The position numbers were made by a program, and so were the translations under genes. The notes beneath the pieces were generated by a model that saw nothing but the letters and a program-made list of their open reading frames with translations, had not been told where the DNA came from and did no database searches. A stretch of DNA of 38,198 bases from the NCBI GenBank assembly GCA_019118935.1, contig DWXY01000005.1, positions 1-38,198 on the forward strand. The letters run 5' to 3'. Source of the stretch: Candidatus Oscillibacter pullicola (GTDB lineage: Bacteria; Bacillota; Clostridia; Oscillospirales; Oscillospiraceae). Shown one piece after another: positions 11,706 through 31,984 of this stretch. Position 1 is the first letter of the stretch. The number at the start of each line of letters is the position of its first letter.

Positions 11706-11767
11706 TTACTCCAGCGTCTCCAGCTCTGCCTGCCACAGCGCAGCGCTGGCGTCGCTCGGCATCCGCC
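11706..11767 (-). repeat. Exact 62-bp copy of the nadE 3' end
   Basis: These 62 bp are identical to 11904-11965, the last 62 bp of nadE including its stop codon, in the same orientation and 198 bp downstream in the gene's sense. Read on the minus strand it again encodes ...MPSDASAALWQAELETLE and a stop, but nothing upstream of it is in frame as nadE. The 384-bp gap between the thioesterase and nadE (11520-11903) otherwise holds the thioesterase promoter, a GCCGGC inverted repeat near 11650-11667, a TTTTCCACA at 11680, and the spacer described next. Confidence 0.92.
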
Positions 11768-11903
11768 GCGTCGTCGCAAAGTCCGCCTTCCTCCGCTTCT
11801 GCCTGCGGCAAAAGCTCCGAACGCTCCCTTGCTCCTCCTTTCCCCAAAAAATCTTTGATTTTTTGGGGACCCCGATGTTCGGCGACTGGCTCCTCTCTTC
11901 CGT
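11768..11903 (-). repeat. Spacer of the nadE tail-duplication element, with 12-bp hairpin
   Basis: This 136-bp stretch separates the nadE stop codon from the second tail copy. It contains a perfect hairpin at 11842-11868 (stem CCCCAAAAAATC, loop TTT). It also contains, on the minus strand at about 11781-11823, a block related to one downstream of glyS (TTTTGCCGcAGGCAgAA, then GGAaGGCGGA). At 11881-11890 GGCGACTGGC is the inverse of 11963-11972 inside nadE, so the gene tail is bracketed by a 10-bp inverted repeat. No T-tract follows the big stem, so it is not a normal terminator. Confidence 0.75.
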
Positions 11904-13829
11904 TTACTCCAGCGTCTCCAGCTCTGCCTGCCACAGCGCAGCGCTGGCGTCGCTCGGCATCCGCCAGTCGCCGCGGGGGGAGAGCGCCGCAGAGCCCACC
12001 TTGGGGCCGTCCGGCAGGCAGCTACGCTTGAACTGCTGGGAGAAGAAGCGGCGGTAGAAGCTCTTCAGCCACTTCAGGATCACGTCCCGGGTGTAGGTCT
12101 TCCCCAGGGCATACAGCGCCAGACGGTAGATCTTCCGGGGCGGGAAGCCCCAGCGGAGCATGTAGTACAGGAAGAAGTCGTGGAGCTCGTAGGGCCCCAC
12201 CAGATCCTCCGTCCGCTGGCTGATCTCCCCCTGGACGGCGGGCAGCAGCTCCGGGGACACGGGGGTGTCCAGAATGTCCTCCAGCACGTCGTGGAGGGCC
12301 TCGTCCTTCTCCGCGTTGTCCCGGGCCAGATAGGCCACCAGATGCCGCACCAGGGTCTTGGGGATGGAGCAGTTGACCGCGTAGTTGCTCATGTGGTCGC
12401 CGTTGTAGGTGCACCAGCCCAGGGCCAGCTCGCTGAGATCCCCCGTGCCGATCACCAAGCCGCCGGTCTGGTTGGCGATGTCCATCAGCACCTGGGTCCG
12501 CTCCCGGGCCTGGCCGTTTTCAAAGGTCACGTCATGGTTCTCCATGCTCTGGCCGATGTCGGTGAAATGGCGCCGCACCGCCTGGGAGATGTCGATGATC
12601 TTCAGCGTGGCGCCCATCCGCTCCGCCAGAAGCTCCGCGTTGGACTTCGTCCGGGCGGTGGTGCCGAAGCAGGGCATGGTGACAGCCACGATGTCGCTGG
12701 CGGGCCGGTTCAGCATCCCCATGGCCAGGGCCGTGATCAGCAGGGCCAGGGTGGAGTCCAGGCCGCCGGAGAGGCCCACCACCGCCGTCTTGGCGCCGGT
12801 GTGCTCCAGCCGCTTCTTCAGGCCCAGGGAGGCGATCCGCAGGATCTCCTCACACCGCTCCGCCCGGCCGGCGGCATCCTCCGGCACGAAGGGGGAGGGG
12901 GAGACGTACCGGGTGAGCCGGGTCTCCTCCACCGGCAGAGTGAAGCTGCACCGCCAGATTTCCGGCGGCTCCTTGCCGAAGGTGAAGGTGTTGGTCCGGC
13001 GGCGGTCATGGACCAGCCGGTCCACATCGATCTCGCTGACGGTGAGCCCGGTGGCGAACCGCCGCTCCGCCAGCAGGGTGCCGTTTTCCGCGATCATGTT
13101 GTGGCCGGTAAACACCACGTCGGTGGTGGACTCTCCCTCCCCGGCGTCTGCGTACACATAGCCGCACATCAGCCGGGCGGACTGGCCCGTCACCAGGGAG
13201 CGGCGGTAATCCGCCTTGCCCACCAGCTCATTGGAGGCGGAGAGGTTCAGGATCACGGTCGCGCCCTTCCGGGCCAGCTCCACAGAGGGAGGCGCCGGGG
13301 CCCACAGGTCCTCGCAGATCTCCACGCCGATCACCAGGTTAGGCATGGTGTCGCAGGCAAAGGTCTGGTTCGTACAGAGGCTCACATGCTGGCCGCACAG
13401 CTCGATCCCGTGCTCCACGCCGCTGCCGGACGCAAACCACCGCTGCTCATAAAACTCCCCGTAATTGGGCAGATAGACCTTGGGAATCAGCCCCAAAATC
13501 TCTCCTTTTTGTATAACAGCTGCACAGTTATACAGTTTGTTGTCCCATTTGTCCCACACGGGCAGACCAAGTGCTGTCACGATGTCCAGATTCCGGGTGG
13601 CCTCCAGAATGGTCTGAAGGCCCTCCTCGGCACCCCGAAGCAGCGTGTCCTGCAGGAACAGATCTCCGCAGGTGTAGCCGGTGAGGCACAGTTCCGGAAG
13701 AGCCAGCACCTTGACGCCCTGCTTGTCCGCCTCCCGCATCAGGGTAAAAATCTGTTCCGCGTTATAGCGGCAGTCCGCCACCCGGATTTTGGGGGTGCCT
13801 GCGGCCACGGAGATAAAACCGTCTCTCAT
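11904..13829 (-). CDS. nadE: Glutamine-dependent NAD+ synthetase
   Basis: Catalyses the last step of NAD synthesis: amidation of deamido-NAD with ammonia from glutamine and ATP hydrolysis. This is the 641-residue two-domain form. The N-terminal nitrilase/glutaminase domain shows the Glu-Lys-Cys triad at about E46 (LALPELCLTG), K117 (IPKVYLPNYGEF) and C172 (GVEICEDLW). The C-terminal synthetase domain has the PP-loop SGGLDS at 354-359. ATG 13829 has CAAGGAGG about 10 nt upstream. A sigma-A promoter lies at 13870-13898. The last 62 bp are repeated downstream. Confidence 0.96.
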   Translation of the reverse strand: MRDGFISVAAGTPKIRVADCRYNAEQIFTLMREADKQGVKVLALPELCLTGYTCGDLFLQDTLLRGAEEGLQTILEATRNLDIVTALGLPVWDKWDNKLYNCAAVIQKGEILGLIPKVYLPNYGEFYEQRWFASGSGVEHGIELCGQHVSLCTNQTFACDTMPNLVIGVEICEDLWAPAPPSVELARKGATVILNLSASNELVGKADYRRSLVTGQSARLMCGYVYADAGEGESTTDVVFTGHNMIAENGTLLAERRFATGLTVSEIDVDRLVHDRRRTNTFTFGKEPPEIWRCSFTLPVEETRLTRYVSPSPFVPEDAAGRAERCEEILRIASLGLKKRLEHTGAKTAVVGLSGGLDSTLALLITALAMGMLNRPASDIVAVTMPCFGTTARTKSNAELLAERMGATLKIIDISQAVRRHFTDIGQSMENHDVTFENGQARERTQVLMDIANQTGGLVIGTGDLSELALGWCTYNGDHMSNYAVNCSIPKTLVRHLVAYLARDNAEKDEALHDVLEDILDTPVSPELLPAVQGEISQRTEDLVGPYELHDFFLYYMLRWGFPPRKIYRLALYALGKTYTRDVILKWLKSFYRRFFSQQFKRSCLPDGPKVGSAALSPRGDWRMPSDASAALWQAELETLE

Positions 13830-13869
13830 GTTGAAAAGCCTCCTTGAAGGAAAAACCTGTATGTTGGAT

Positions 13870-13898
13870 ATTCTACACCCGGCAGCCCGGATTTACAA
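13870..13898 (-). promoter_or_regulatory. Sigma-A promoter of nadE
   Basis: Minus strand: TTGTAA (plus 13893-13898), 17-nt spacer, TAGAAT (plus 13870-13875), about 40 nt before the nadE start. Confidence 0.7.
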
Positions 13899-13907
13899 GA
13901 AAGGGCC

Positions 13908-13936
13908 TTGTTTTTTTGGCGGCATTCTGATATTCT
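13908..13936 (+). promoter_or_regulatory. Candidate promoter of the TIGR00300-type gene
   Basis: TTGTTT (13908-13913), 17 nt, TATTCT (13931-13936), divergent from the nadE promoter. It would give a leader of about 145 nt before the start codon; I see no clear riboswitch in that leader. Confidence 0.45.
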
Positions 13937-14089
13937 GAATGCGATCAAACTTCCCGCGCCCTCTTGCCGGATGGGAATGCCGACGGGCCTGGAGGCTGCT
14001 CCGCAGGTATTGTGAGGAGCGGTCCCCGGGCTTTTCTTCTCTGCATCTGGCGGGACGCCGACACCATCTTTCAAAGGAGGAACGTCATC

Positions 14090-15181
14090 ATGCCGTTTCA
14101 GCTGCGCCCCTATTTTCCGCCGGACTTTTCCACACCCGCACTGGAAAACGCGCCGGACGCCGTCTTCCGCCCGGCGCCACGGGACGGCGTGGCGCCGGAG
14201 AATTTCCACGCCATGAGCATCTTTCCGGAATATTTCAAGATCGCGGGGCAGTGGCATCTGGCCCGGGAGAGCCGGATGGACTGTGTGGCCGTGTGGGACC
14301 GGGGCCGCATCGACGTCCGGGAATTCCGCCGGCTGCGGCAGGGAGAACTGGTGGCCGTCGGCCGCACAGAGCAGGGGGAGGAGGGAATCCTCGTCCACCC
14401 GGACGGCTTCCGGGAGCGGCGGGTTGCCAGAGACGTGTTCGCCTTCCGGCAGGGCCGCTCCCGGGAGACCGCCTTTTCCCGGGACTATGACGAGCTCTAT
14501 GAGCTGCTGCGCCACGAGCGGGACCACGGCAAGGTGGTCTGGGTGATGGGCCCCGCCTTCGCCTTTGACCACGACGCCCGCAACGCCTTCTCCCGGCTCA
14601 TCGCAGGCGGCTATGTCCATGCCGTGCTGGCGGGCAACGCGCTGGCTACCCATGACCTGGAGGCGGCCTACCTCAACACCGCCCTGGGGCAGAACATCTA
14701 CACGCAGGAAAGTCAGCCCAACGGGCACTACAACCACCTGGACACCATCAACCGGGTGCGGCTCCACGGGTCGATCCCCGCCTTTCTGAAAGCGGAGCAG
14801 ATCGACAGCGGCATTCTGTACACCTGCGAACAGCATGGCGTCCCGTACGTGCTGGCGGGCTCCATCCGGGACGACGGGCCTCTGCCGCCGGTGCTGGCGG
14901 ACGTCTACGCCGCCCAGGACGCCATGCGGGCAGAGATCCGCTCCGCCACCACGGTGATCTGCATGGCCACCGCCCTCCACACCATCGCCGCCGGAAACAT
15001 GACCCCCTCCTACCGGGTGCTGGCAGACGGAACGGTGCGGCAGGTGTATTTCTACTGCGTGGACATCTCGGAATTTGCCGTGAACAAGCTCAGTGACCGG
15101 GGAAGCCTCTCCGCCCGGGGCATCGTCACCAATGTGCAGGACTTCATCGTCCATCTCAGCAAGGAACTGATCCAGCCGTAA
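14090..15181 (+). CDS. TIGR00300-family (LOR/SDH domain) protein, ornithine cyclodeaminase-like
   Basis: A 363-residue cytoplasmic protein that I recognise as the LOR/SDH, TIGR00300 group. The diagnostic C-terminal half contains VHAVLAGNALATHDLEAA, a histidine-containing NHLDTINRVR, VPYVLAGSIRDDGPLPPV, TALHTIAAGN and VDISEFAVNKLSDRGS. In archaea and in cyanobacterial AgrE/ArgZ, members of this domain convert ornithine to proline with bound NAD. Whether this enzyme does the same is inference. ATG 14090 has AAAGGAGG 9 nt upstream. It is monocistronic between its own promoter and a strong terminator, with no arginine or proline gene nearby. Confidence 0.8.
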   Translation: MPFQLRPYFPPDFSTPALENAPDAVFRPAPRDGVAPENFHAMSIFPEYFKIAGQWHLARESRMDCVAVWDRGRIDVREFRRLRQGELVAVGRTEQGEEGILVHPDGFRERRVARDVFAFRQGRSRETAFSRDYDELYELLRHERDHGKVVWVMGPAFAFDHDARNAFSRLIAGGYVHAVLAGNALATHDLEAAYLNTALGQNIYTQESQPNGHYNHLDTINRVRLHGSIPAFLKAEQIDSGILYTCEQHGVPYVLAGSIRDDGPLPPVLADVYAAQDAMRAEIRSATTVICMATALHTIAAGNMTPSYRVLADGTVRQVYFYCVDISEFAVNKLSDRGSLSARGIVTNVQDFIVHLSKELIQP

Positions 15182-15184
15182 ACA

Positions 15185-15230
15185 CACAAAGGACCGCCGG
15201 GTGGCGGTCCTTTGTGCTGTGTGTGTTTTT
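15185..15230 (+). terminator. Intrinsic terminator
   Basis: Perfect 14-bp stem (CACAAAGGACCGCC / GGCGGTCCTTTGTG, 4-nt loop) four nucleotides after the TIGR00300-type gene, ending in a GTGTG-TTTTT tail. Confidence 0.9.
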
Positions 15231-15264
15231 AGGAGGGAGAAAACGCATCGGGTTTGGGAGGACC

Positions 15265-15395
15265 CTTTGCTTGATTATAAAGATATCCGAAAATTTTTTC
15301 TAAATTATGTTTTTCTTATGAACAGATTGTAAATGTTTTTTTCTGTTTCCGTAAACAGCGGAAAAATTTAGAAAAAGTTGTATTTTTTTGGAAGA
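15265..15395. other. AT-rich island in a non-coding gap
   Basis: The 15231-15653 gap begins with about 130 bp that are far richer in A+T than the rest of the window. Runs of five to seven A or T start near 15294, 15310, 15336, 15362, 15372 and 15383, partly at helical spacing, with a small CTGTTT/AAACAG hairpin at about 15344-15359. No coding potential is seen. It could be intrinsically curved DNA, a foreign remnant, or a promoter region that lost its gene. Confidence 0.5.
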
Positions 15396-15457
15396 TGGGT
15401 CTGTTTCCCTCACTTTTTCTCCCTATGAGAAGAGGGCGGGGTCTATCGGGATTTCCG

Positions 15458-15505
15458 GCCGCCGCCCGCTCATCACAGCGGTCGCCGTATGCGTTCTTCA
15501 GATGG
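15458..15505 (-). pseudogene. Diverged fragment of the rnhA 3' region
   Basis: In rnhA orientation this reads ...NAYGDRCDERAAA, matching [13 protein letters not shown] of the intact gene. At DNA level 15458-15505 aligns without gaps to 15676-15723 (offset 218 bp) with about 37 of 48 identical bases, including a 15-nt exact run. It is an isolated tail fragment with no start and no upstream rnhA sequence, and lies downstream of the intact gene's stop. Confidence 0.72.
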
Positions 15506-15653
15506 TTCCCCACCCGGCTCTGCCGGGCGGGGAAGCTATTTTTTTGATTTGCCCGGCGGAAGGAAATTCCGAATCCGCCAAGGCTTTGCCTTTGTCAAAC
15601 GGCTTGTACGGCCCCTGCCCGCTCCGGCGGGTGCAAGAGCCATGCCCGGTCCC
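15506..15653 (-). repeat. Spacer between rnhA and its tail fragment, with 13-bp hairpin
   Basis: Directly next to the tail fragment is a hairpin at 15506-15534 (TTCCCCACCCGGC, loop TCT, GCCGGGCGGGGAA; one G-U pair). Further along, at about 15550-15597, lie an inverted pair around AATTCC and a GGCAAAGCC/GGCGGATTC block that resembles part of the glyS spacer (GGCAAAATC, GGCGGATTC). A small CCCGC..GCGGG repeat lies near 15617-15631. No gene is visible. Confidence 0.65.
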
Positions 15654-16091
15654 TTACTTGTATTTCTGGCTCTCCGCCACCGCCAGCTCATCACAGCGGT
15701 TGTTGTACGCATTTTCCGCATGGCCCTTGACCCAATGGTAACGGAGGGAATGAACCTCTGTCAGGGCCAGCAGCTGGTCCCAGAGATCCGGATTCAGGGC
15801 GGGCTTCTTGTCGGCCTTTTTCCAGCCCCGGGCCTTCCAGCCCTTGGCCCAGCCCTTCTCCAGCCCGTCGATCACATACTTGGAATCGGACCAGAGGTCC
15901 ACGATACAGGGCTCCTTCAGCAGGGACAGCGCCTGGATCACGGCGGTGAGCTCCATGCGGTTGTTGGTGGTGGCGGCCTCGCCGCCGGAGAGCTCCCGGC
16001 TGTGGGGGCCGTACATCAAAATCGCGCCCCAGCCGCCGGGGCCCGGATTGCCGGAGCAGGCGCCGTCGGTGTAGATGGTGACTGTTTTCAT
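15654..16091 (-). CDS. rnhA: Ribonuclease HI
   Basis: A 145-residue RNase HI that degrades RNA in RNA-DNA hybrids (primers, R-loops). The four catalytic acids are recognisable: Asp in [12 protein letters not shown] (residue 9), Glu in [13 protein letters not shown], Asp in [11 protein letters not shown] and Asp in [10 protein letters not shown], plus the basic substrate loop [21 protein letters not shown] 16091 is 7 nt from AAAGGA; ATG 16094 is an alternative one codon longer. It lies downstream of gyrA on the same strand across a 117-bp gap (16092-16208) containing a GAGCCGT/ACGGCTC hairpin. Its 3' end is partly repeated 218 bp downstream. Confidence 0.94.
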
Positions 16092-16208
16092 CATGAAATC
16101 CTTTTGGAAGATGGTTTTGAATGGGAGAGCCGTTCCCGAGGAGACGGCTCCCCCTGTGCTCTGACAAACCTCCCGGCGGAGGCGTTTTCGCCCCGGATCC
16201 GGGCGGCC

Positions 16209-18695
16209 TTACTCCTCGGCCTCGGCGCTGTCCTCTTCATGGTCTGTGAGCGCCAGGGAGATCACGTGATCCCCCTCCTCCTTGAACCGCATGACGATGA
16301 CGCCCTGAGTGGCCCGGCCCGCGGTGCGGATGCTGTCCACCGGGGTGCGGATCAGGATGCCCGCCTGGGTCACCAGCAGCAGGTCCTCCGTGCCGTCCAC
16401 CACCTTGATGCCCACCACGGGGCCGGTCTTGTCCGTCACCATGTAGTTCTTGATGCCGAGGCCGCCCCGGTTGGTGATCCGGTAGTCCTCCACCGGCGTC
16501 CGCTTGCCGTAGCCGTTTTCCGTGATGGCCAGCACCGCATGATTGGCCTTTGCCCGGGCGGCGCCCACCACGTAGTCGCCCTGGCGCAGCCGGATGCCCC
16601 GCACGCCCACGGCATCCCGGCCCATGGGCCGCACATCGTTTTCGTCAAAGCAGACCGCCATGCCGTCATGGGTGGCGATGAGGATCTTCTGGTTGCCGTC
16701 GGTCTCCCGCACAGCGATCAGTTGGTCGCCCTCCTCCATCCGCAGGGCGCGGATGCCGTTGTTCCGCAGATTCTTCAGGGTATTGGCCGGCAGGCGCTTC
16801 ACCGTGCCGTTCCGGGTGACCATGAAGAGGAAGCGGCCGTCGTCCTCGATGGACCGGGTGTGGATCATGGCCTGGATCCGCTCGCCCTGTTCCACCTGAA
16901 GGATGTTGACGATGTTGGTCCCCTTGGCGGCCTTGCCGGACTCAGGGATCTGATAGCCCTTCTTCCGGTAGACCTTGCCGGTATCTGTGAAGAAGAGGAT
17001 ATAGTCGTGGGTGGAGGCGGTAAACACATCCACCACGTAGTCCTCCTCCCGGGTGGTGATGCCCTTCTTGCCCATGCCGCCCTTGGACTGGGCGGTGTAC
17101 TCGCTGGCAGGCGTCCGCTTGATGTAGCCCGCCTGGGTCAGGGTGAAGACGCACTGCTCCTCCTCGATCAGGTCCTCGATGTCGATCTCATCCTCCACAT
17201 CCTGGATCTCCGTGACCCGGTCGTCGCCGAATTTGTCGGAGATGGCCTGGAGCTCCTCCTTCAGCACCTTGCGCAGCAGCTCGTCGGAGGAGAGCAGCTG
17301 GTTGAAGTAGGCGATCTTCTCCTCCAGCTCCTTGTACTCCGCCTCCAGCTTCTCCCGGTCCAGGCCCTGAAGGGCTTTCAGCCGCATATCCAGAATGGCC
17401 TGGGCCTGGATGTCGTCCAGACCGAAGCGGGACATCAGGTTCTCCTTGGCGTTGTCGTAACTGCTGCGGATGATCTTGATGACCTCGTCGATATTGTCCT
17501 GGGCCACCAGCAGACCCTCCAGCAGGTGGGCCCGCTCCTGGGCCTTGCGCAGGTCGTACTTGGTGCGGCGGATGATGACCTCCTCCTGGAAGGCCAGATA
17601 CTCGTCGATGATGTGGCGCAGGGAGAGGATCTTGGGCTGGGACTGGTTGTTCACCAGGGCCAGCATGTTGATGGCAAAGCTGGTCTGCAGCTGGGTCTGG
17701 GCGAACAGGCGGTTCAGAACCACCTGGGGGTTGGCGTCCCGCTTCAGCTCAATGACGATGCGCATGCCGTCCCGGTCGGACTCGTCCCGGATGTCGGAGA
17801 TGCCGTCCAGCCGCTTGTCCTCCACCTGGTCGGCCATGTTCTTGATGAGCATGCGCTTGTTGACCTGGTAGGGGATCTCGGTGATGACGATGCGGGTGCG
17901 GTCCTTGCCGAACTCCTCAAACTCATGCCGGGCCCGGATCACCACCCGGCCCCGGCCGGTGGCGTAGGCCTGCCGGATGCCGCTGCGGCCCATGATGATG
18001 CCCCGGGTGGGGAAGTCCGGCCCCTTGATGTACTGCATCAGGTCACTGAGCTGGGCCTCCGGATTGTCCAGCACGCAGATGCAGGCGCCGATCACCTCCC
18101 GCAGGTTGTGGGGCGGGATATTCGTGGCCATGCCCACCGCGATGCCGCTGGAGCCGTTCACCAGCAGGTTGGGAAACCGGGAGGGCAGGACACGGGGCTC
18201 CCTGCGGGTCTCGTCGAAGTTGGGGTCCCAGTCCACGGTGTCCTTTTCAATGTCCCGCAGCATCTCGTCGGAGAGCCGGGACATCCGAGCCTCCGTGTAC
18301 CGGTAGGCCGCCGGGGGGTCGCCATCCACGGAGCCGAAGTTGCCGTGGCCGTCCACCAGGGGATAGCGCATGGAGAAATCCTGGGCCAGGCGGACCAGGG
18401 CGTCATAGACGCTGGCGTCGCCGTGGGGATGGTACCGGCCCAGCACGTCGCCCACGCAGGTGGCGGACTTCTTGAAGGGTTTGTCCACCGTGAGGCCGTC
18501 CTCGTACATGGCGTAGAGGATCCGGCGGTGGACGGGCTTCAGGCCGTCCCGCACGTCAGGGAGAGCCCGGCCCACGATGACGCTCATGGCGTACTCGATA
18601 TAGGATTTCTCCATCTCGGGGACCAGCGGCGACTCCACGATCTTCTGTTCGGGGTACCGGATCTCCTCAGGATCGTATTGGGGCTTTTTGCTCAT
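16209..18695 (-). CDS. gyrA: DNA gyrase subunit A
   Basis: The breakage-reunion subunit of gyrase, 828 residues. The catalytic tyrosine is Y133 in YRYTEARM. Conserved N-terminal motifs ([27 protein letters not shown]) are followed by the tower and coiled-coil regions and a C-terminal beta-propeller for DNA wrapping. The quinolone-determining region reads [10 protein letters not shown], so the residue equivalent to E. coli Ser83 is Ala94 while the Asp87 equivalent is retained (D98). ATG 18695 has AGGAGGA 10 nt upstream; a longer reading adds only spacer sequence. Downstream of gyrB on the same strand, separated by 246 bp of hairpin-rich DNA. Confidence 0.97.
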
Positions 18696-18941
18696 TTGCA
18701 AATATTCCTCCTTCAGAGGCGTTTTCATGGTAGGGGCACACCCGTGTGTGCGCCCGGATTTTCCGGGGCAGGCCGACACATAGGTCGGCCTGCTCTCTCA
18801 AGAGACATTAAATCTTTACATTCAAATCATTTTTGTCAGGACATGCGCCTGACAAAAATACATTGATCCAGCCGCCCTGGGCGGCGTCACCAGTGCGCAC
18901 ACTGGTGGGGGGAATCTAAGGGGGGGGACGAAGTCCCCTCT
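18696..18941. repeat. gyrB-gyrA spacer with five or more hairpins
   Basis: In 246 bp I find several inverted repeats. They are GGGGAC/GTCCCC right after the gyrB stop, a perfect palindrome ACCAGTGNGCACACTGGT-like near 18890-18907, and GCCGCC/GGCGGC near 18871-18886. A 12-bp stem ATTTTTGTCAGG/CCTGACAAAAAT lies at 18829-18859 with a 7-nt loop, CAGGCCGAC/GTCGGCCTG at about 18765-18792, and a GGGGCACAC/GTGTGCGCCC repeat near 18733-18752. The 12-bp stem has T on its 5' side and A on its 3' side on both strands, so it is not an intrinsic terminator. Some of these resemble dispersed GTAGGGGC-type repeats of related genomes, from memory only. Confidence 0.65.
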
Positions 18942-20891: not shown

Positions 20892-20940
20892 GCAGGTTCT
20901 CCTTTCAGGATATTCATATCCGTTCCAAGGCAAGAAGAGC

Positions 20941-20964: not shown

Positions 20965-20996
20965 TTTCTCCTTGCCCTGAACCATGTAAGTTGGAA

Positions 20997-22593: not shown

Positions 22594-22624
22594 CTCCCGC
22601 GCTCGCGCTTGGTTGCGGTGTTCA

Positions 22625-23728: not shown

Positions 23729-23933
23729 AGGCCACCGTGTAGTGGGCGCCCTGGAAGGCCACGTCGTCTCCGGGGCGGATCTTTTTGCCCCGCATGGTGC
23801 AGATCTCGCCGTTGACGGTGACCTCACCGCCCTGGATCCGCTCCTTGGCCTCGCCGCCGGAGGACACCAGATTGGCGAATTTCAGCAGGTCCTGGAGCTT
23901 GATGAACTCCGTGTGAATCGTGATCGTCTCCAT
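23715..23933 (-). CDS. rlbA: S4-domain RNA-binding protein RlbA/YaaA
   Basis: A 72-residue S4-domain protein, the standard small gene between dnaN and recF in Firmicutes (YaaA). The S4 core is visible as [33 protein letters not shown] followed by [10 protein letters not shown]. In the family it is a presumed RNA/ribosome-binding protein; its exact role is not established. It starts 4 nt after the dnaN stop, using a GGAGTGA inside the end of dnaN, and overlaps recF by 14 nt. Confidence 0.9.
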
Positions 23934-23937
23934 CTGC

Positions 23938-25050
23938 TCACTCCGCGCTCTTCAGCCGCACCGGCAGGACCATATAGAGGAAGTTCTCCTCGCCCTCCGT
24001 GGGGACGATGATGGCGGGGGAGACGCCGGTGTTCAGCTCAATCTTCACCGTGTCCGCCGGCGCGTACCGCAGGGCCTCCATCAGATAGCGGTTGTTGAAG
24101 CCGATCTCCAGCCCGCCGCCGTCGCCGGACAGGCGGCAGATGTCCTTGGCCTCGCCGTTGCCGGTCTTGGCGGAGAGCAGCACCTTGTCATGGTCGAACA
24201 GGCACCGGACCGGACTCTTCTGCTTCTCGGAGATCACCACGCTGACGCGGTCGATGCTCTCGATCAGGGCCTTGGTGTCCGCAATGACGGAGATGGGATT
24301 CTTCCGGGGGATGGCGTTCTTGTAATCCAGGAACTCTCCCTCCAGCCGGCGGCAGATCAGCTCCGTATCGCCCACCTCAAAGAGGATATGGCTCTTGCCC
24401 AGGGTCACGGCGGCCAGATCCTCCACGTCGGAACAGATGTTTTTCACCTCGCCCAGGGCGCTGCCCGGCGCCACGAAGGAGAAGGCGCCGCCGTCGATCT
24501 TTTCCAGCGGCTCCCGCCGGATAGCCAGACGGAATCCGTCCACCGCCACCATGGTCAGGCCCTGGTCCGTGATCTCAAACAGGGCGCCGGTGTGGATGGG
24601 GCGGCTCTCATTGGTGGAGACGGCGAAGGCCGTCTCCTCGATCATGGCCCGCAGCAGCTTCTGCTGGATGGAGACGGAGAAATCATCCTCCACCATGGGA
24701 AGCTCCGGATAGTCCGCGGCGGAGAGGCCCAGGATGTCAAAGTCCGCATCGCCGCAGGAGAGATGGACCAGCTGTTTGTCATCCGCGGTGAAAACCACCA
24801 CATCGTCGGGCATTCGGCGGATGATGTCGCCGAAGAGGCGGGCGTTCAAAACGATCTCGCCGGGTTCCGTCACATCGGCGGAGACCTTCGTGCGGATGCC
24901 GGTCTGCAGGTTGTAGCCGGAGATAGTCAGCTGGCTGTCCGCGTGGAGCAGCAGTCCTTCCAGCGCGGGGATGGAGCTCTTCTGGGCCACGGCGCGGCTG
25001 GTGACGGCGATGGCGCTTTGCAGAAGGGCCTTTTCACAGGAGAATTTCAT
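23938..25050 (-). CDS. dnaN: DNA polymerase III beta subunit (sliding clamp)
   Basis: A 370-residue clamp protein that forms a ring dimer tethering DNA polymerase III to DNA. It shows the three-fold clamp architecture: an N-terminal [21 protein letters not shown], the central [11 protein letters not shown] region, and a C-terminal ..[11 protein letters not shown]. Length is standard. The start has GAGGAAGTG upstream. It follows dnaA on the minus strand after a 257-bp gap that holds the probable oriC. Confidence 0.97.
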
Positions 25051-25100
25051 GCATGCACTTCCTCTCTAGTCGGGGTTTGAAGATATGGGTCGGAATCGCT

Positions 25101-25301
25101 CTTTTCAAAAAGAAAGAAATGTATTTTTTAGAAAAAGCAGCCGTAGGAAAAAAAGCTGTGGAAAAGGCGGGGAAAGGCTTGCGCTGTCGGATTTTGAGGC
25201 TCCACAGGGGATGTGGAAGGATCCGGGGATTTTTCCACGGACTTTTTTGAAAGACCATTTTCCACAGGAAAGTTTTTCTTTTCCACGGGAGATGTGGAGA
25301 A
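25101..25301. other. oriC: Probable origin of replication (oriC): AT-rich stretch plus DnaA boxes
   Basis: The dnaA-dnaN gap contains DnaA-box-like 9-mers. They are TTTTCCACA on the minus strand at 25157-25165, TTTTCCACG at 25231-25239, TTTTCCACA at 25258-25266, TTTTCCACG at 25279-25287, and TTCTCCACA on the minus strand at 25293-25301. Weaker TCCACA-containing sites lie near 25201-25220. Next to them at about 25101-25155 is an A/T-rich run with long A and T tracts, a candidate unwinding element. The dnaA-dnaN position and flanking genes are standard for Firmicutes origins. Confidence 0.85.
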
Positions 25302-25307
25302 ATCCGG

Positions 25308-26624
25308 TCACCGCTTGGAGTTGATATTCGTCTTGATCTCCTTCACCATTTCGGCGAATGCGGCGTCCTTTTTCATCTTCTTCTCGATCTGCTGGATGGA
25401 GTAGAGAACGGTGGAGTGGTCCCGGTTGTCAAAGACCTTGCCGATCTCGTCCAGACTGAGATTCGTCATGGAGCGGATCAGGTACATGGCGATCTGCCGG
25501 GCGGAGACCGCGTCCCGCACCCGCTGCTGGCCCCGGATCACGGACTCGTCCAGGCTGTAATATTTGGAGATATATTCAAGAATGGCCTCCGGCGTGGGCA
25601 CGTACTCGTTGCTGCGGCGCAGCATGTCCTGGATGGCCCGGGTGACGGTCTCCTCGTCGGTGTCGTTGCCCAGCAGATCCTTGTAGGCCAGGATCTTGTT
25701 GATGGTGCCCTCCAGCTGGCGGACATTGGCGGTGACGTTTTCGGCGATGTAGGCGGAGATCTTGTCCGGCAGCTCCATGCCCAGCAGGGCGGCCTTGTTC
25801 TTCACGATGGCAAGGCGCGTCTCAAAATCCGGCGGCGCCACGTCCACCAGCAGGCCCCACTCGAACCGGGTGCGGAGGCGGTCCTCCAGCTGGGTCATCT
25901 CAGAGGGGGGACGGTCGGAGGTCAGGACGATCTGCCGGCCGGACTCGTACAGGGTGTTGAAGGTATGGAAGAACTCCTCTTGCGTCTGCTTCTTGCCGGC
26001 GATGAACTGCACGTCGTCCACCAGCAGCAGGTCTGCCTGGCGGTACTTCTCCCGCATCTCCGCGGTCTTGCCCTCCCGGATGGCGTCCACCAGCTCATTG
26101 GTCAGGTCGTCGCCCTTCACGTAGGCGATCTTGGATCGGGGGTCGTTCCGGCGGATGACGTTGGCGATGGCATAGATCAAATGGGTCTTGCCCAGGCCGG
26201 AGTCCCCGTAGATCAGCAGGGGGTTGTAGTTCTGGGCGGGATGCTCCGCCACGGAGACGGAGGCGGCGTAGGCCAGCTTGTTGGAGGGGCCCACCACGAA
26301 GGTCTCGAAGGTGAACTCCGCGGAAGTGAACCGCTCGCTCTGGCGGTGCGGGCGGTTGTCCTTGAGTTCTGCATAATCCAGGTCGTCCAGAATCTTCACT
26401 TCAAAATCCGTGGAGAAAATGTCGTGAAGGGAGGCCTTGATGTTTTTCATGAACAGGGACTCGATATAGCCTTTTTTGAAGTCGTTGGAACAGTGGAGGA
26501 TAAACGTATTGCCCTGGATGTCCACAGCCTCCAATTCGTCGAACCAGGTGGCGATGGTGGTCTCCGAGAGCTCGCCCTTCAGCTGGGATAGTACATTGTC
26601 CCACACGTCGGCGACGGAATTCAA
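25308..26624 (-). CDS. dnaA: Chromosomal replication initiator DnaA
   Basis: A 438-residue initiator. Domain I (about 1-80) starts MNSVADVWDNVLSQLKG. The AAA+ domain has Walker A GDSGLGKT at 140-147, Walker B LLLVDD at 199-204 and a sensor region SDRPPSEMTQLEDRLRTRFEWG. Domain IV carries the DNA-binding signature NRDHSTVLYSIQQIEKK. The only start that fits domain I is TTG 26624, with GAGAGGTG 7 nt upstream; no in-frame ATG lies nearby. A consensus-like promoter is at 26673-26701. Domain II is short. Confidence 0.96.
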   Translation of the reverse strand: MNSVADVWDNVLSQLKGELSETTIATWFDELEAVDIQGNTFILHCSNDFKKGYIESLFMKNIKASLHDIFSTDFEVKILDDLDYAELKDNRPHRQSERFTSAEFTFETFVVGPSNKLAYAASVSVAEHPAQNYNPLLIYGDSGLGKTHLIYAIANVIRRNDPRSKIAYVKGDDLTNELVDAIREGKTAEMREKYRQADLLLVDDVQFIAGKKQTQEEFFHTFNTLYESGRQIVLTSDRPPSEMTQLEDRLRTRFEWGLLVDVAPPDFETRLAIVKNKAALLGMELPDKISAYIAENVTANVRQLEGTINKILAYKDLLGNDTDEETVTRAIQDMLRRSNEYVPTPEAILEYISKYYSLDESVIRGQQRVRDAVSARQIAMYLIRSMTNLSLDEIGKVFDNRDHSTVLYSIQQIEKKMKKDAAFAEMVKEIKTNINSKR

Positions 26625-26672
26625 AAGGAAACACCTCTCTCTAGTAAAAAAATAGACATGACAGTACGCTTT

Positions 26673-26701
26673 ATTATACCAAAGACAGCCGGAAATTACA
26701 A
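26673..26701 (-). promoter_or_regulatory. Sigma-A promoter of dnaA
   Basis: Minus strand: TTGTAA (plus 26696-26701), 17-nt spacer, perfect TATAAT (plus 26673-26678). It lies about 50 nt before the TTG start. The 378-bp gap 26625-27002 holds this promoter, an A/T-rich stretch around 26800-26860 and the divergent rpmH promoter; I see no DnaA box in it. Confidence 0.85.
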
Positions 26702-26858
26702 CACTTATTCTAATAATAAGAACCGGGGAGATCCGGCTGCGCAGGCAACAAGATATAGCGGCTTTGGGCCGCATGAGGCACCAGATTTTGAAATTTTCGA
26801 GAATCGCAACCGAAAAAAGAAAAAAATACGGAAATTTCGCAAAACTTTCAAGTTTTAG

Positions 26859-26887
26859 TTGACATATTTTCAAACAGTCTGTATAAT
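26859..26887 (+). promoter_or_regulatory. Consensus sigma-A promoter of rpmH
   Basis: TTGACA (26859-26864), 17 nt, TATAAT (26882-26887): a perfect match to the consensus, preceded by an A/T-rich UP-like region. The leader of about 105 nt contains a CCGCCC/GGGCGG hairpin near 26930-26945. Confidence 0.93.
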
Positions 26888-27002
26888 ATCGGTTGCGCCG
26901 CGATCACGCGGTCTTGATCTGTTTACTGCGCCGCCCTCCGGGCGGTGTCGAGTAAGTGCCGCCCTGCAAAAGGGCCGCAATTCTGACAGGAGGTGTCTCA
27001 AC

Positions 27003-27143
27003 ATGGCAACGAAACGTACCTATCAGCCCAAGAAGCTGCACGGCCAGAAGGTCCACGGTTTCCGCAAGAGAATGGCAACCGCCAACGGCCGCAAGGTCCT
27101 GGCCCGTCGCCGCGCCAAGGGCCGCGCCCGTCTGTCCTACTGA
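27003..27143 (+). CDS. rpmH: 50S ribosomal protein L34
   Basis: A 46-residue, very basic ribosomal protein: it begins [11 protein letters not shown] and contains [20 protein letters not shown]. An AGGAGGTG ribosome site lies 7 nt before the ATG and a consensus promoter upstream. First gene of the rpmH-rnpA-yidD-yidC-jag block, divergent from dnaA as in most Firmicutes. Confidence 0.97.
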
Positions 27144-27171
27144 GAAACGGACCGTGCGGGAGACACTTGAA

Positions 27172-27221
27172 CAACGTCTTCAGGGACGGCGGGAATTCTG
27201 TGATTCCTCCGTCCCTCGTTG
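27172..27221 (+). promoter_or_regulatory. Long stem-loop between rpmH and rnpA
   Basis: An interrupted hairpin: CAACG/CGTTG at the base, AGGGACGG/CCGTCCCT in the middle and GGAAT/ATTCC at the tip. No strong T-tract follows, so it looks more like an mRNA processing or stability element that uncouples abundant L34 from scarce RnpA than a full terminator. Confidence 0.6.
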
Positions 27222-27264
27222 AGTTTGTGTCAGCTGTGTCAAATGGGAGAAGGCAGGTGGCAGC

Positions 27265-27609
27265 ATGAAGCGGGCAGTGACCCTGAAAGAGAATTATGAA
27301 TTCCGCCGGCTGTACCAGAAGGGCGCCTCCGCCGTGGGCGGAGGGATGGTGCTTTACTGCCGGAAAAACCGGCTGGGGCACAACCGCCTGGGCGTGACGG
27401 TATCCGTCAAGCTGGGCCACGCGGTGGTCCGCAACCGGGCCCGCCGCCGCCTGCGGGAGGTCTACCGGCTCAATTCCGGACGGCTCCGCCAGGGGTACGA
27501 CATGATCCTGGTGGCCAGGGGCCGGACCCTGACCGCGTCCTGGAAGGAGCTGAACGACACCTTCCTGCGTCTTTGCAGGAAGCTGGAGCTGCTGGAGGTC
27601 CGGTCATGA
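27265..27609 (+). CDS. rnpA: Ribonuclease P protein component
   Basis: The 114-residue protein partner of RNase P RNA for 5' processing of tRNA precursors. It shows the N-terminal [14 protein letters not shown] and the hallmark basic helix [15 protein letters not shown], followed by [12 protein letters not shown] 27265 has AGGTGG upstream. Its stop overlaps the yidD start. Confidence 0.96.
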
Positions 27610-27818
27610 TGAAAAAGGTCCTGCTGGCCCTGGTGAAATTTTACCGGGTGGCCATCTCCCCGTACCGGCCGCCCTGCTGCCGGTATATTCCTACCTGTTC
27701 CCAATATGCGCTGGAGGCCATTGAGAAGTACGGCGCCCTCAAGGGCGGCTGGCTGGCGTTCCGGCGCATCCTGCGCTGCAATCCGTTTCACAAGGGAGGA
27801 TATGATCCGGTCCCATGA
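27606..27818 (+). CDS. yidD: Membrane protein insertion efficiency factor YidD
   Basis: A 70-residue protein that assists YidC-dependent membrane insertion. The family pattern [32 protein letters not shown], a [15 protein letters not shown] and a final GYDPVP are all present. ATG 27606 (GGAGG 7 nt upstream) overlaps the rnpA stop. The 151-bp gap to yidC holds a GAGGGG/CCCCTC hairpin right after the stop and a GAGCGGAG/CTCCGCTC stem near 27903-27923. Confidence 0.94.
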
Positions 27819-27969
27819 GAGGAGGGGACAAGCCCCTCTGCCGGACCCTGCGCCGCCGTCCGGCCGTCTGCCGGCCGGCACTGCGGAATGCGGACAGGCC
27901 GGGAGCGGAGCTGCTCCGCTCTGCGGGTGCTGAAAGCCCGGGTCCCATTACGATTTGGAGGAAGCATCT

Positions 27970-29100
27970 ATGTTTTCAACCATCGGATACGCAATCTGTA
28001 TCCCCTTTGCGGCCCTGCTGCGGCTGTTTTACAACCTGACAGGGTCCTACGGCGTGTCCCTGATCCTGTTCACGCTTGTCATCAAGCTGATCCTGCTGCC
28101 CTTCCAGATGAAGTCCAAGAAGAGCATGGTGCGGATGAGCCGCATGTCCGGCAAGATGCAGGAGATCCAGAAGAAATACGCCAACAACCAGCTGAAGATG
28201 CAGGAGGAGATGCAGAAGTTCTACCAGGAAGAGGGCTTCAATCCCATGAGCGGCTGCCTGTGGAGCTTTCTGCCCCTGCCCATCCTGATGGCCCTGTACT
28301 ATATCATCCGGGAGCCCATTGTCTACTTCATGAACTTCGGCGGCAAGGACGCCGGTCTGGCAGTGGTGGATGCGGCCAGAAGCCTGATTGAAGGCGCCGG
28401 CATTGAGATCGTGGCCAGCCCCGGCTATGAGCAGATCGCCATTTCCAACATCATCAACAGCCAGTTCCCCGACTTCATTGCAGAGAATCCCGGCTGGGTG
28501 AACATCGATTACCACTTCCTGGGGATTGACCTGATCCAGACGCCCTGGAGCGCTGTCAGCAGCCTCTCTACCGGCATCACGCTGGCCGCGGTGGGACTGA
28601 TTCTGATTCCCATCATTTCCGGTGTGTTCAGCTTCCTGCTGAGCAAGGTCAGCATGAGCCAGTCCGCCCAGACCGCGGCTGCCAACGGTTCCACCAAGAT
28701 GATGATGTGGATGATGCCCCTGATGTCCGTCTACATCGCCTTCATCGTGCCCGCCGCCCTGGGCGTGTACTGGGCTGCCCAGAGCGCGTTCTCCATTATT
28801 CAGGAGATGGTCCTGGGCAAGTTCTACACCAAGAAGCTGCAGGAAGAGGAGGACGCCCGGCAGGAGCTGATCCAGGCGGACCGCCAGAAGCGGATGGAGG
28901 AGGCCAAGCTGCTTCAGGAGCAGCAGCGCCAGCAGGCCGCCCAGAAGAAGAGCCTGAAGGAAAAGCGGCAGGAGGCCCAGGCGGCCAAGGCCCTGAAGGC
29001 CAAAAAGGCGGCCACCAGCACCACAGAAGCGGGCCGTGTGGGCGACCGGCCCTATGCCCGCGGCCGGTCCTACAAGGCGGACCGCTATGATGATCAGTAA
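27970..29100 (+). CDS. yidC: Membrane protein insertase YidC/Oxa1
   Basis: A 376-residue insertase of the 60 kDa inner-membrane protein/Oxa1 family. Membrane segments lie at about residues 7-25, 30-48 (SYGVSLILFTLVIKLILLPF), 92-115, 195-222 and 238-268, with a hydrophilic loop rich in Met, Lys and Gln after the second. The position of the conserved groove Arg of SpoIIIJ-type proteins appears to be Lys here (VIKLILLPF). A long charged, coiled-coil-like C-terminal tail (about 285-376, rich in Gln, Lys, Ala) may bind ribosomes. GGAGGA lies 7 nt before ATG 27970. Co-transcribed with jag. Confidence 0.94.
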   Translation: MFSTIGYAICIPFAALLRLFYNLTGSYGVSLILFTLVIKLILLPFQMKSKKSMVRMSRMSGKMQEIQKKYANNQLKMQEEMQKFYQEEGFNPMSGCLWSFLPLPILMALYYIIREPIVYFMNFGGKDAGLAVVDAARSLIEGAGIEIVASPGYEQIAISNIINSQFPDFIAENPGWVNIDYHFLGIDLIQTPWSAVSSLSTGITLAAVGLILIPIISGVFSFLLSKVSMSQSAQTAAANGSTKMMMWMMPLMSVYIAFIVPAALGVYWAAQSAFSIIQEMVLGKFYTKKLQEEEDARQELIQADRQKRMEEAKLLQEQQRQQAAQKKSLKEKRQEAQAAKALKAKKAATSTTEAGRVGDRPYARGRSYKADRYDDQ

Positions 29101-29115
29101 GGAGCTTGTTACGCC

Positions 29116-29940
29116 ATGAGACAGTTTATTGATGTAACGGGCAAGACCGAGGATGAGGCCATCCAGAACGCCCTGCGGCAGCTTGGCCTGGACCGGGACG
29201 ATGTGTCCGTTGAGATTTTGGAGCGTGCAAAGTCCGGTTTCCTGGGCCTGGGCAGCTGCCCGGCCAAGGTCCGGGTGAGCTACGGCCCGGAGGAGGAAGA
29301 GGAGGTCCTCGCCCCCGCGCCCGCCCCCAAGGAGGAGCCGCGGGAAGAGCGGCCCAAGCCGCCCAAAGCGGAAAAGCCGCCCAGACAGGAGCGCAAGCCG
29401 GCGGAGGCGCCGGCGCCCGCCCCGGAGGAGAAGGCCCGGCAGGCCGCTCCCGTGCAGACGCTGGGCGAAGAGGTGGACGACGAGAAGGCCCAGGCCATCC
29501 GCAAGTTCCTCTCCGGCCTGCTGGAGCAGATGGAGAGCGCTGCGGAGATCCACATCTACCTGCTGGAGAAGGGCCGCTACAAGGTCATCCTGGAGGGCAA
29601 GAACCTGGGCGCGCTGATCGGCCGCCGGGGCGAGACTCTGGACGCCATCCAGCAGCTGACCAGCTATGCGGTGAACCGCAGCGGCAGCGGCCGGGTGCGG
29701 GTGCAGCTGGACGCGGAGAATTACCGGGAGAAGCGGGAGCAGAGTCTGCAGCATCTGGCCCGGAAGGTGGCCGCCAAGGTCACCAAGTACCGCCGCAGCG
29801 TGACGCTGGAACCCATGAACGCCTATGAGCGGCATGTGATCCATACGGCGCTGCAGGACGTGCCCAATGTGACCACCTACTCCACCGGCACGGAGCCCAA
29901 CCGCCGGGTGATCGTGGCCTACGACCGGGAGAAGAAGTGA
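29116..29940 (+). CDS. jag: RNA-binding protein Jag/KhpB
   Basis: A 274-residue RNA-binding protein that partners KhpA in Gram-positives and affects cell elongation and division. An N-terminal Jag_N domain (about 1-55, ending RAKSGFLGLGSCPAKVRV) is followed by a Pro/Glu/Ala-rich linker. A KH domain with an IGRRGE loop (about 145-195) and a C-terminal R3H domain (REKREQSLQHLARKVA ... MNAYERHVIHTALQD) complete it. It starts 15 nt after yidC. A strong terminator follows, so the mnmE/mnmG genes that often come next are not in this operon. Confidence 0.94.
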   Translation: MRQFIDVTGKTEDEAIQNALRQLGLDRDDVSVEILERAKSGFLGLGSCPAKVRVSYGPEEEEEVLAPAPAPKEEPREERPKPPKAEKPPRQERKPAEAPAPAPEEKARQAAPVQTLGEEVDDEKAQAIRKFLSGLLEQMESAAEIHIYLLEKGRYKVILEGKNLGALIGRRGETLDAIQQLTSYAVNRSGSGRVRVQLDAENYREKREQSLQHLARKVAAKVTKYRRSVTLEPMNAYERHVIHTALQDVPNVTTYSTGTEPNRRVIVAYDREKK

Positions 29941-29945
29941 ATTGG

Positions 29946-29974
29946 AAAAGGCCGCCCCATGGGGCGGCCTTTTT
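29946..29974 (+). terminator. Intrinsic terminator after jag
   Basis: Full palindrome AAAAGGCCGCCCC-AT-GGGGCGGCCTTTT running into a T-tract, 5 nt after the jag stop. Confidence 0.93.
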
Positions 29975-30056
29975 CTGCGCTCCGGATGAGAGGGATCAGA
30001 CCGGGGGCCGGAGGGGGAGAATGCTCTGCCCGGTGCGGCTTCTGCGGGACTCGGCC

Positions 30057-30085
30057 TTGACATTCTGACGAAAACGTGATACAGT
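30057..30085 (+). promoter_or_regulatory. Promoter of the glyS T-box leader
   Basis: TTGACA (30057-30062), 17 nt, TACAGT (30080-30085). It places transcription start just before the conserved T-box stem I. Confidence 0.75.
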
Positions 30086-30091
30086 TCTCAC

Positions 30092-30331
30092 GATATCCAA
30101 AAGGCAGTGACAGGGAGAAGTATCCCCCATACCCCGGCAAAGAGAGAGGGCGGCTGGTGTGAGCCCTTGCGGGGAGGCGGAAGAACAGGCACCCTGGAGC
30201 CGCGGGGCGGAAATGCCCTGCCGGTCCCCGCCGTTACCGGGTGAAGAGTGCGCGTCAGCCAGGCGCGAATTCAGGTGGAACCACGGACTGATTGTTCGCC
30301 CTGAGCCGAAAACCGGCTCGGGGCGTTTTTT
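30092..30331 (+). promoter_or_regulatory. Glycine T-box riboswitch with terminator
   Basis: Leader RNA that reads uncharged tRNA-Gly and permits glyS transcription. Stem I elements are visible: GTGACAGGGAGAAGTA (about 30106-30121) and the distal AGAGAGGGCGGCTGGTGTGAGCC region. The T-box core AGGTGGAACCACGG is at 30273-30286. The likely specifier is GGC (Gly) at 30188-30190 in the 3' half of stem I. The terminator stem CGCCCTGAGCC / GGCTCGGGGCG with TTTTTT is at 30297-30331, and it competes with the T-box antiterminator. Confidence 0.93.
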
Positions 30332-30362
30332 CTGTCCGGGCCGCCGAAAAGGAGAATGGAGC

Positions 30363-31778
30363 ATGAAAAACACCGAGAAGACCATGGAGAAGATCGTGGC
30401 CCTGTGCAAGAACCGGGGATTCGTCTTCCCCGGCAGCGAGATCTATGGCGGCCTCGCCAACAGCTGGGACTACGGCCCCCTGGGCGTGGAGATGAAGAAC
30501 AATGTCAAGCGGGCCTGGTGGAAGAAATTCGTCCAGGAGAATCCCTACAACGTGGGACTGGACTCCGCCATTTTGATGAATCCCCAGGTGTGGGTGGCCA
30601 GCGGCCACGTATCCACCTTCAACGATCCTCTGATCGACTGCAAGGCCTGCAAGATGCGCCACCGGGCGGACAAGCTAGTGGAGAGCTATGTGCAGGAACA
30701 CGGCATGGACGTGAACGTGGAGGCCATGACCCAGGAGGAGCTGGTGGCATTCATCCGGGACAACCAGGTGCCCTGCCCCGGCTGCGGCAAGAGCGACTTC
30801 ACCGACATCCGCAAGTTCAACCTGATGTTCAAGACCCACCAGGGCGTCACGGAGGACACCGCCAACGAGGTGTACCTGCGGCCGGAGACCGCCCAGGGCA
30901 TTTTCGTCAACTTCCCCGCCATCCAGCGGACCACCCGCCGGAAGCTGCCCTTCGGCGTGTGCCAGATCGGCAAGTCCTTCCGCAACGAGATCACCCCGGG
31001 CAACTTCATTTTCCGCATCCGGGAGTTCGAGCAGATGGAGCTGGAGTTCTTCTGCAAGCCGGACACGGATCTGGAGTGGTTCCAGTATTGGCGGACTTAC
31101 TGCCACGACTGGCTGAAGGGCCTGAACATCAAGGAGGAGAATCTGCGGCTGCGGGATCACGAGCCCGAGGAGCTGAGCTTCTACTCCAAGGCCACCACGG
31201 ACTTTGAGTATCTGTTCCCCTTCGGCTGGGGCGAGCTGTGGGGCGTGGCGGACCGCACCAACTACGACCTGACCCAGCATCAGGAGCACTCCGGCCAGGA
31301 CCTGACCTATTTCGATCAGGAGAAGAACGAGCACTATATTCCCTATGTGGTGGAGCCCTCCCTGGGCGCGGACCGGATGACCCTGGCCCTGCTGGTGGAG
31401 GCCTACGACGAAGAGGTGGTGGATGCGGAGAAGAACGACGTCCGCACCGTCATGCGATTCCATCCAGCCATCGCGCCTTTCAAGTGCGCGGTGCTGCCCC
31501 TTTCCAAGAAGCTCTCCGACAAGGCCCGGGAGATCCAGGCGGAGCTCAGCAAGGACTGGATGGTGGACTTCGACGACACCGGCTCCATCGGCAAGCGGTA
31601 CCGCCGGGAGGATGAGATCGGCACGCCCTACTGCATCACGGTGGACTTCGACACCGTGGGCGACGCGGACAAGGCCGGCGACAACTGCGTCACCGTCCGG
31701 GACCGGGACACCATGGAGCAGGTGCGGCTGCCTATCGACCAGCTGAAGGGCTATCTGGCAGAGAAACTGGCGTACTGA
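30363..31778 (+). CDS. glyS: Glycyl-tRNA synthetase (homodimeric class II type)
   Basis: A 471-residue class II synthetase that charges tRNA-Gly; the single-chain alpha2 type. It has the family's N-terminal [27 protein letters not shown]. Motif 2 is in [25 protein letters not shown], motif 3 is in [14 protein letters not shown], and a C-terminal anticodon-binding domain follows. ATG 30363 has AAAAGGAG 8 nt upstream. Expression is governed by the T-box leader. Its last 62 bp are repeated 205 bp downstream. Confidence 0.96.
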
Positions 31779-31984
31779 TGCCTGCGCCGATCCTGCTCCA
31801 GAACGCCGCGGCGCGGCGTCCGAGCATTTTGCCGGAGGCAAAATCTCGCCGGAGGGCGGATTCATTTCGCCCGAGGAATGAGATGGGGCAGGTGCCGCGC
31901 AAAAGCGGTGCTTTTGCGCGGGGCAGGTGCGGCTGCCTATCGACCAGCTGAAGGGCTATCTGGCAGAGAAGCTGGCATACTGAT
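31718..31984 (+). repeat. glyS tail-duplication element
   Basis: The end of glyS (31718-31779, stop included) recurs at 31923-31984 with 60 of 62 bases identical. Both differences (31766/31971 and 31772/31977) are synonymous in the glyS frame. The 143-bp spacer has no coding potential. It holds ATTTTGCC/GGCAAAAT at 31826-31844, a GGCGGATTC block, and a 12-bp hairpin at 31895-31921 (CCGCGCAAAAGC, loop GGT). That hairpin is flanked by an 11-bp direct repeat GGGGCAGGTGC (31885-31895 and 31920-31930). Confidence 0.9.

Follow-up and report, generated by a model that had tools for sequence, protein, structure and literature searches.

Three genes in a 38,198-nt stretch of Candidatus Oscillibacter pullicola DNA (contig DWXY01000005.1 of genome GCA_019118935.1, labelled G000 below; the whole stretch is called the window) carry a second copy of their own ends, with a short structured module, E, between the two copies. 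The E-linked gene-end repeats are a real, wide-reaching family of Oscillibacter-group gut bacteria and some relatives that combines three parts: a replacement gene end, a sequence complementary to the insertion site, and the structured module itself. The complementary sequence is a new observation, missed by an initial annotation of this DNA. Taken together, these parts suggest a small mobile element of a new kind, and we are about as inclined to accept as to doubt that these are non-autonomous, site-specific, guide-directed homing units at the ends of conserved genes; the guiding and the active insertion are what we infer from the sequences, not what we observed.

Duplicated gene ends and the structured module

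The three genes, whose identities are backed by Pfam and NCBIfam, are nadE (NAD+ synthase), rnhA (RNase H) and glyS (glycine--tRNA ligase), and their direct repeats lie at the places and offsets originally claimed: 65 nt at 98% for nadE (62/62 in the core, offset 198), 65 nt at 95% for glyS (60/62 in the core, offset 205), and 48 nt at 77% for rnhA (offset 218), the last extending to 59 nt at 47/59. We call the upstream repeat copy T1, the downstream copy T2 and the insertion point p; x is the gene sequence around p, and x' a run complementary to x within the insert, 5' of E. The hairpin claimed for every spacer was seen in all three, along with short open reading frames that cross the spacers. 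The features of the window are as follows (R1 and R2 are the covariance models of the two classes of E).

11902..11963, minus strand: nadE T1, upstream repeat copy, functional last 62 bp of the nadE region (repeat search and family match)
11704..11765, minus strand: nadE T2, downstream repeat copy, followed by a terminator-like hairpin (repeat search)
11963..11973, minus strand: nadE x, target at the repeat start (p), 11/11 complementary to x'
11880..11890, minus strand: nadE x', inverted copy of x on the 5' side of the insert
11766..11873, minus strand: nadE E, type A module (model R2, 112.3 bits, training-set member)
15665..15723, minus strand: rnhA T1, functional gene end (repeat search and family match)
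15446..15505, minus strand: rnhA T2, decayed downstream copy (repeat search)
15718..15729, minus strand: rnhA x, straddling p
15634..15645, minus strand: rnhA x', 12 nt including one G-U pair
15507..15623, minus strand: rnhA E, type B module (model R1, 79.7 bits, training-set member)
31718..31779, plus strand: glyS T1, functional last 62 bp of the glyS region (repeat search and family match)
31923..31984, plus strand: glyS T2, downstream copy, followed by a terminator-like hairpin (repeat search)
31714..31722, plus strand: glyS x, straddling p
31792..31800, plus strand: glyS x'
31804..31922, plus strand: glyS E, type B module (model R1, 93.3 bits, training-set member)

Searches of the window's own genome with the nadE and glyS inserts and a third insert (L012) showed that the spacers are members of dispersed families, several other members of which stand between long direct repeats drawn from very dissimilar genes. 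The E modules are structured, about 110-140 nt long, and of two classes; the short blocks that the initial annotation saw as shared among the spacers are parts of such families, but of two (type B at glyS and rnhA, type A at nadE). The covariance-model check proposed for the spacers recovered a covarying structure: in the eleven aligned type B inserts that share one structure, and from which R1 was built, 18 of the 31 predicted pairs have at least one two-sided change. R1 has 37 matches in the window's genome (E-value up to 0.01) and 31 in the close relative G108; at an E-value up to 0.001 and with the stricter filters of Infernal, matches occur in 23 of 60 genomes (own included), a patchy spread in which many same-genus genomes had no match in that search. 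Type A was found by R2 in 7/7 genomes searched, own included, and in G061 the E copies are known from single sites and R2, not from an R1 search. Unrelated loci have E in common at about 70% identity. No terminal inverted repeats were noticed in the alignment of inserts (no search was aimed at them), and no viral contig gave an exact match to a 28-nt E core.

Searched against Rfam at an E-value up to 10, the glyS insert gave no match, the rnhA insert five weak non-intron matches (the best with an E-value of 0.036 and 16.7 bits, where the gathering score is 45) and the nadE insert two non-intron matches; all are far below gathering scores and were taken as chance, and no intron family appeared for any of the three. 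The only gathering-threshold Rfam match in the window is a T-box leader 5' of glyS (30098-30306, RF00230, 108.2 bits). No description of the E family was met in the literature found (titles and abstract openings, with subscription journals and preprints outside the scope).

Some individual copies stand apart. One R1 match (L356) lies on the Pusillibacter faecalis plasmid pMM59_01 (NZ_AP023421.1), and two others (L354 in MT838853.1, L355 in MT838705.1) each lie near one end of an unannotated contig that was submitted as phage; a match comes straight after glyS in 3 of 80 named glyS loci (L303, L291, L306). In both loci of G018 that were read (L419, L412) a type A copy ends a longer repeat-like noncoding stretch. 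At L010 (G000:C119:38831-38913) a type A-like module sits inside what is presumably an RNase P RNA gene; a long inverted repeat closes the module, and no long direct repeat was found alongside.

Flanking repeats and site-complementary sequence

We analysed 125 R1 copies, 31 of the 37 from the window's genome and 94 from relatives (mostly the top of the match list, and mostly distant from contig ends); for one copy no flank could be used. With a direct repeat defined by a score of at least 21 and a start no more than 9 nt after E, a gene-end repeat is present at 87 of the 102 copies outside G042, and at 2 of the 23 in G042, a genome from another family of the same order. Among randomly paired flanks the median score is 8.5, the 95th percentile 12 and the 99th percentile 33.5, and same-gene copies may be behind this last high value. 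Taking the longest sense frame, 54 of the 89 repeat-flanked copies have their repeat end at -5 to +15 nt of its stop codon, compared with 8/178 when the repeat end is shifted 40 nt either way; in 7 further copies it ends no more than 10 nt from an antisense ATG, one of them (L045) being a tRNA-side copy.

Arrays of 3-4 tails occur. The array at the glyS locus of G108 (L166), whose period is 206, comprises four glyS tails and three copies of E, and at the end of one dnaB gene (L016, G000:C42) three tail copies and two different E sequences stand in tandem. In G042 (L105-L124) E is a rather uniform dispersed repeat, often adjoining another repeat. At L032/L045 (G000:C86) and L123 (G042) several short copies of the adjoining end, which we take to be a tRNA 3' end, lie beside E, and the x/x' geometry differs.

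Tail duplications go with E and are not a general property of gene ends, because gene tails in unselected DNA gave no duplicate at all. In 400 kb each of the relatives G108 and E-poor G014, chosen irrespective of E (about 11-13% of the two genomes, with a crude gene caller and a duplicate score of at least 20), duplicates were found for 0/336 and 0/320 tails, 3/343 and 3/331 mid-gene segments, and 2/318 and 0/311 gene heads, respectively, both G108 heads being inside an E array; the same test in the window gave 2/27 tails and 0/27 mid-gene segments. The idea that a genome-wide scan would find more duplicated tails than duplicated gene interiors, read literally, failed (0/656 tails, 6/674 mid-gene segments, in the unselected samples). 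Because these samples are small and the one E array in the G108 sample was missed or misread by the gene caller, the case rests on the E copies themselves.

The x/x' complementarity score is at least 10 in 43 of the 89 repeat-flanked copies, compared with 17 of 526 mismatched pairs, and at least 11 in 36/89 and 3/526. In 34 of these 43 copies the start of x, looked for in a 36-nt window, is at -9 to -1 relative to p (mode -5); over all 43, the 3' end of x' lies beside the first hairpin in 20, 13-20 nt before the hairpin in 15 and elsewhere in 8. At sites shared between genomes, eight differences in x comprise five two-sided changes, three G-U pairs and no broken pair, although the zero is partly built in, because the windows were picked for complementarity; the count covers 19 non-independent pairs, a twentieth (cluster 19) having been set aside as a mis-pairing. 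The sequence at p itself has just a weak purine/G preference, due in part to the choice of repeat alignment.

Guide-like pairing across the insertion point, as found in these 43 copies, is a trait of group I introns, whose guide pairs with both exons in the account given in the cited part of PMC3984707. If the unit were an intron-like ribozyme, x' would be its internal guide, T1, x' and E would be spliced out together, and T2 would be the tail used, which is consistent with the intact frame and stop of T2 in 54 of 68 T1/T2 pairs. However, the rnhA T2 has decayed and the nadE T2 of G108 no longer has its stop, Rfam offered no intron family for the three window inserts, and the unit, unlike a group I intron, brings its own copy of the gene end lying beyond p; we regard a ribozyme of this kind as highly improbable.

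Target genes and the origin of the two tails

A family name could be given at 18 of the 20 own-genome anchor sites, and the targets are mostly conserved housekeeping genes: EF-G-like, prfC, glyS, fhs, dnaB, hisS, rnhA, HIT family, PhoB-like regulator, aspS, alr, murE, yjbQ, lepA, prfB, mutL, pgi and uppP (L027 had no family match and L038 a repressor domain only). Besides the gene 3' ends first proposed as the target, E also stands at gene 5' ends, at prfC, mutL and hisS. Judged by sequence similarity, E clusters by target gene and not by genome: the similarity is 0.794 for the same target in different genomes (56 pairs), 0.700 for different targets in the same genome (630 pairs) and 0.695 where neither is shared (3230 pairs). 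The nearest E is at the same target for 30 of 89 copies, at another target in the same genome for 19 (some of them array mates) and at neither for 40. With two structural classes, sites at 5' ends and clustering by target, the single class of insertions originally supposed is not borne out.

We compared 20 sites of G000 with G108, G061 and G062, as far as anchors allowed. The presence of E differs between G000 and G108 at seven of them; at two of the seven G108 keeps remnants of E after the hisS and uppP tails, and E was therefore lost there by G108. Empty glyS sites exist. At three sites (prfB, mutL and prfC) T1 looks foreign, being closer to another species' element-linked tail than to its own T2. 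At prfB in G000, T2 and the downstream flank match E-less G108 and G061 (5 and 4 differences), whereas T1 has 11 and 9 differences to these and is nearer to E-bearing G062 (6). At mutL, T1 is 4-6 differences from G062, compared with 12-14 for T2, and has G062's ribosome-binding region; the T2 flank matches the E-less relatives, and upstream of p the closest flank is that of E-less G108. At prfC the nearby genomes are G062 for T1 (5-6 differences) and G108 for T2 (7-8). The analogy with elements that bring a replacement tail thus finds support at these three of the 20 sites. Across G061 and G062, site 5 has its T1 copies in one group and its T2 copies in another; sites 6 and 14 have T1 copies that group together and T2 copies that have diverged; at sites 1, 10 and 12 the divergence is too small to discriminate. 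T1/T2 divergence is not simply a measure of insertion age, as the graded values had suggested, because within a genome the two copies at nadE and at glyS have been homogenised, and at some sites the upstream tail has a foreign look.

Over 68 of 71 T1/T2 pairs (those with identity of at least 0.75, which drops L164, L123 and the window's own rnhA, and including L139, L096 and L052 at antisense gene starts, where the frame is not the gene frame, and L117 from G042), coding mismatches by codon position are 54:49:177, and the codons concerned comprise 161 synonymous ones and 70 others; once pairs that repeat the same last 12 residues are removed, the remaining 59 give 48:38:147. This third-position bias fits two tails that were probably both once functional gene ends, and homogenisation could contribute to it. 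Mismatches are spread along the repeat, at 0.04-0.12 per tenth, lowest in the first tenth.

The repeats are 30-128 bp long (median 64, arrays included) and so lack the fixed short target duplication of a transposon or a miniature inverted-repeat transposable element; their variable length would suit a transposon that duplicates a very long stretch of target site whenever it inserts and that also copies the site into x'. Such a transposon would also account for T1 and T2 that are identical or nearly so at many sites, and for one gene hit at different p by E copies 0.90 alike (target cluster 8, L129, L102). We think it quite improbable all the same: the repeats end near stop codons and not at random, the T1/T2 differences have their third-position bias, T1 looks foreign at three sites, and E does not cluster by genome.

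The main rival to guide-directed homing, and a serious one, dispenses with dedicated mobility altogether: E would be an old structured repeat, and the tails, x' and the arrays would arise and persist through replication slippage, template switching at inverted repeats and homologous recombination with relatives' DNA. T1 and T2 do evolve together at nadE and glyS, tails do form arrays, G108 does keep remnants of E at hisS and uppP, x' tracks x as template switching could yield, and none of three enzyme families tested is common to the E-bearing genomes. On the other side, x has a preferred offset to p; the spread of mismatches, with its minimum in the first tenth, means that tracts do not end randomly inside T2; at mutL the closest genome is E-less G108 for the flank upstream of p and G062 for T1; and an E about 70% identical at unrelated loci must have been copied somehow. 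We judge this explanation unlikely on the whole.

Guide-directed homing and known systems

The initial proposal of an undescribed small element at gene ends stands in so far as a structured E family recurs there, but not as one class of graded age. In the guide-directed homing that we favour, the unit would consist, in order, of a replacement gene end (T1), a linker, the guide x' and E, and would be placed at p inside the end of a conserved gene, leaving the host's original end (T2) downstream. As RNA or single-stranded DNA, x' may base-pair with x to select p, and E may be a scaffold for a host or trans-acting enzyme, or itself catalytic. The unit could then spread horizontally between orthologous genes, which would stay unbroken because it brings the missing end, and later recombination between the repeats would produce arrays, losses and homogenised copies. 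The fuller version, a nucleic-acid-guided homing system about 200 bp in size that is protein-free or trans-served, and whose lineages each use one conserved housekeeping gene end via x' and repair the entered gene with the carried end, is a tentative one, to which we give rather less than an even chance.

Several results weigh against guide-directed homing. An x/x' score below 10 is found for 46 of the 89 repeat-flanked copies, and the nearest E is at the same target for only 30 of the 89 (30/59 when copies are counted only if another genome has one at the same target). The foreign T1 signature is limited to 3 of 20 sites, and two of these are imperfect: at mutL, T1 and T2 are equally far from the E-less relatives (7-8 vs 8), and at prfC the genome that T2 resembles, G108, is itself E-bearing. 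At nadE and glyS each genome's own repeats are alike, and those of G000 differ from those of G108; since the two copies evolve together, recombination is needed there rather than homing. The tail repeat is lacking at 21 of the 23 copies in G042 and at 19 of the 24 testable type A copies (present at 5), and E can therefore spread in other ways. Finally, no donor and no partner enzyme was identified, the latter among three enzyme families searched.

These searches used the profiles RVT_1 (reverse transcriptase), Y1_Tnp (the transposase of IS200/IS605 and RAYT-mobilised elements) and RRXRR (IscB) on 86 genomes of the genus, which are drafts, so that absence is not proof, and no enzyme of the three is common to the E-bearing genomes. 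RVT_1 had no match in E-bearing G000, G018, G061, G004, G027 and G028 and was present in E-bearing G108, G013, G008 and G007; Y1_Tnp had no match in E-rich G008 and E-bearing G061 and was present in G000, G108, G004, G007, G013, G018, G027 and G028. Near nine weak Y1 genes there was one R1 match (12.9 bits, E-value 0.034). IscB (RRXRR) occurs in 4 of the 86 genomes, including G007, with none in G000 or G108.

In diversity-generating retroelements, too, hairpins adjoin a near-copy of a gene's 3' end; this candidate was rejected on the mismatch spectrum (of the 261 T1/T2 mismatches, 187 are transitions, and there is no adenine specificity), and the draft of the window's genome, as said, has no RVT_1 match. 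Genomic islands and integrative elements can enter the end of a gene and leave the gene intact. One of them, SGI1, is inserted at the 3' end of trmE by a site-specific recombinase, according to the cited part of PMC8409611. Our units are like such islands in their position at a gene end and in the intact gene, and unlike them in being about 200 bp long, without a recombinase gene and with many targets. For the repetitive extragenic palindromic sequences and bacterial interspersed mosaic elements (REP/BIME) and other small palindromic repeats, we know of no site-complementary x' or gene-end copy. These too are dispersed, hairpin-rich noncoding repeats, as E is (PMC2817692, PMC2229807). They go with Y1 (RAYT) transposases; in the drafts of E-rich G008 and E-bearing G061 no Y1 protein was detected. 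In IS110 elements a noncoding RNA picks the site by base pairing, the bridge RNA pairing with both target strands via two guides in the part of PMC11208160 cited; x', which may guide in a similar way, appears as one contiguous run complementary to one strand, which would set it apart from the bridge RNA so described.

If guide-directed homing is true, the unit would be a selfish element reduced to a minimum, able to enter some of the cell's most conserved genes without breaking them, and its guides and insertion points would form a naturally diversified collection. It would also be a very small addition to the nucleic-acid-guided insertion systems, for which the directly testable question is whether x' chooses the site. 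Even if recombination and template switching were to account for all of it, a genome-wide family that repeatedly duplicates and homogenises conserved gene ends would be an unusual force on coding sequence.

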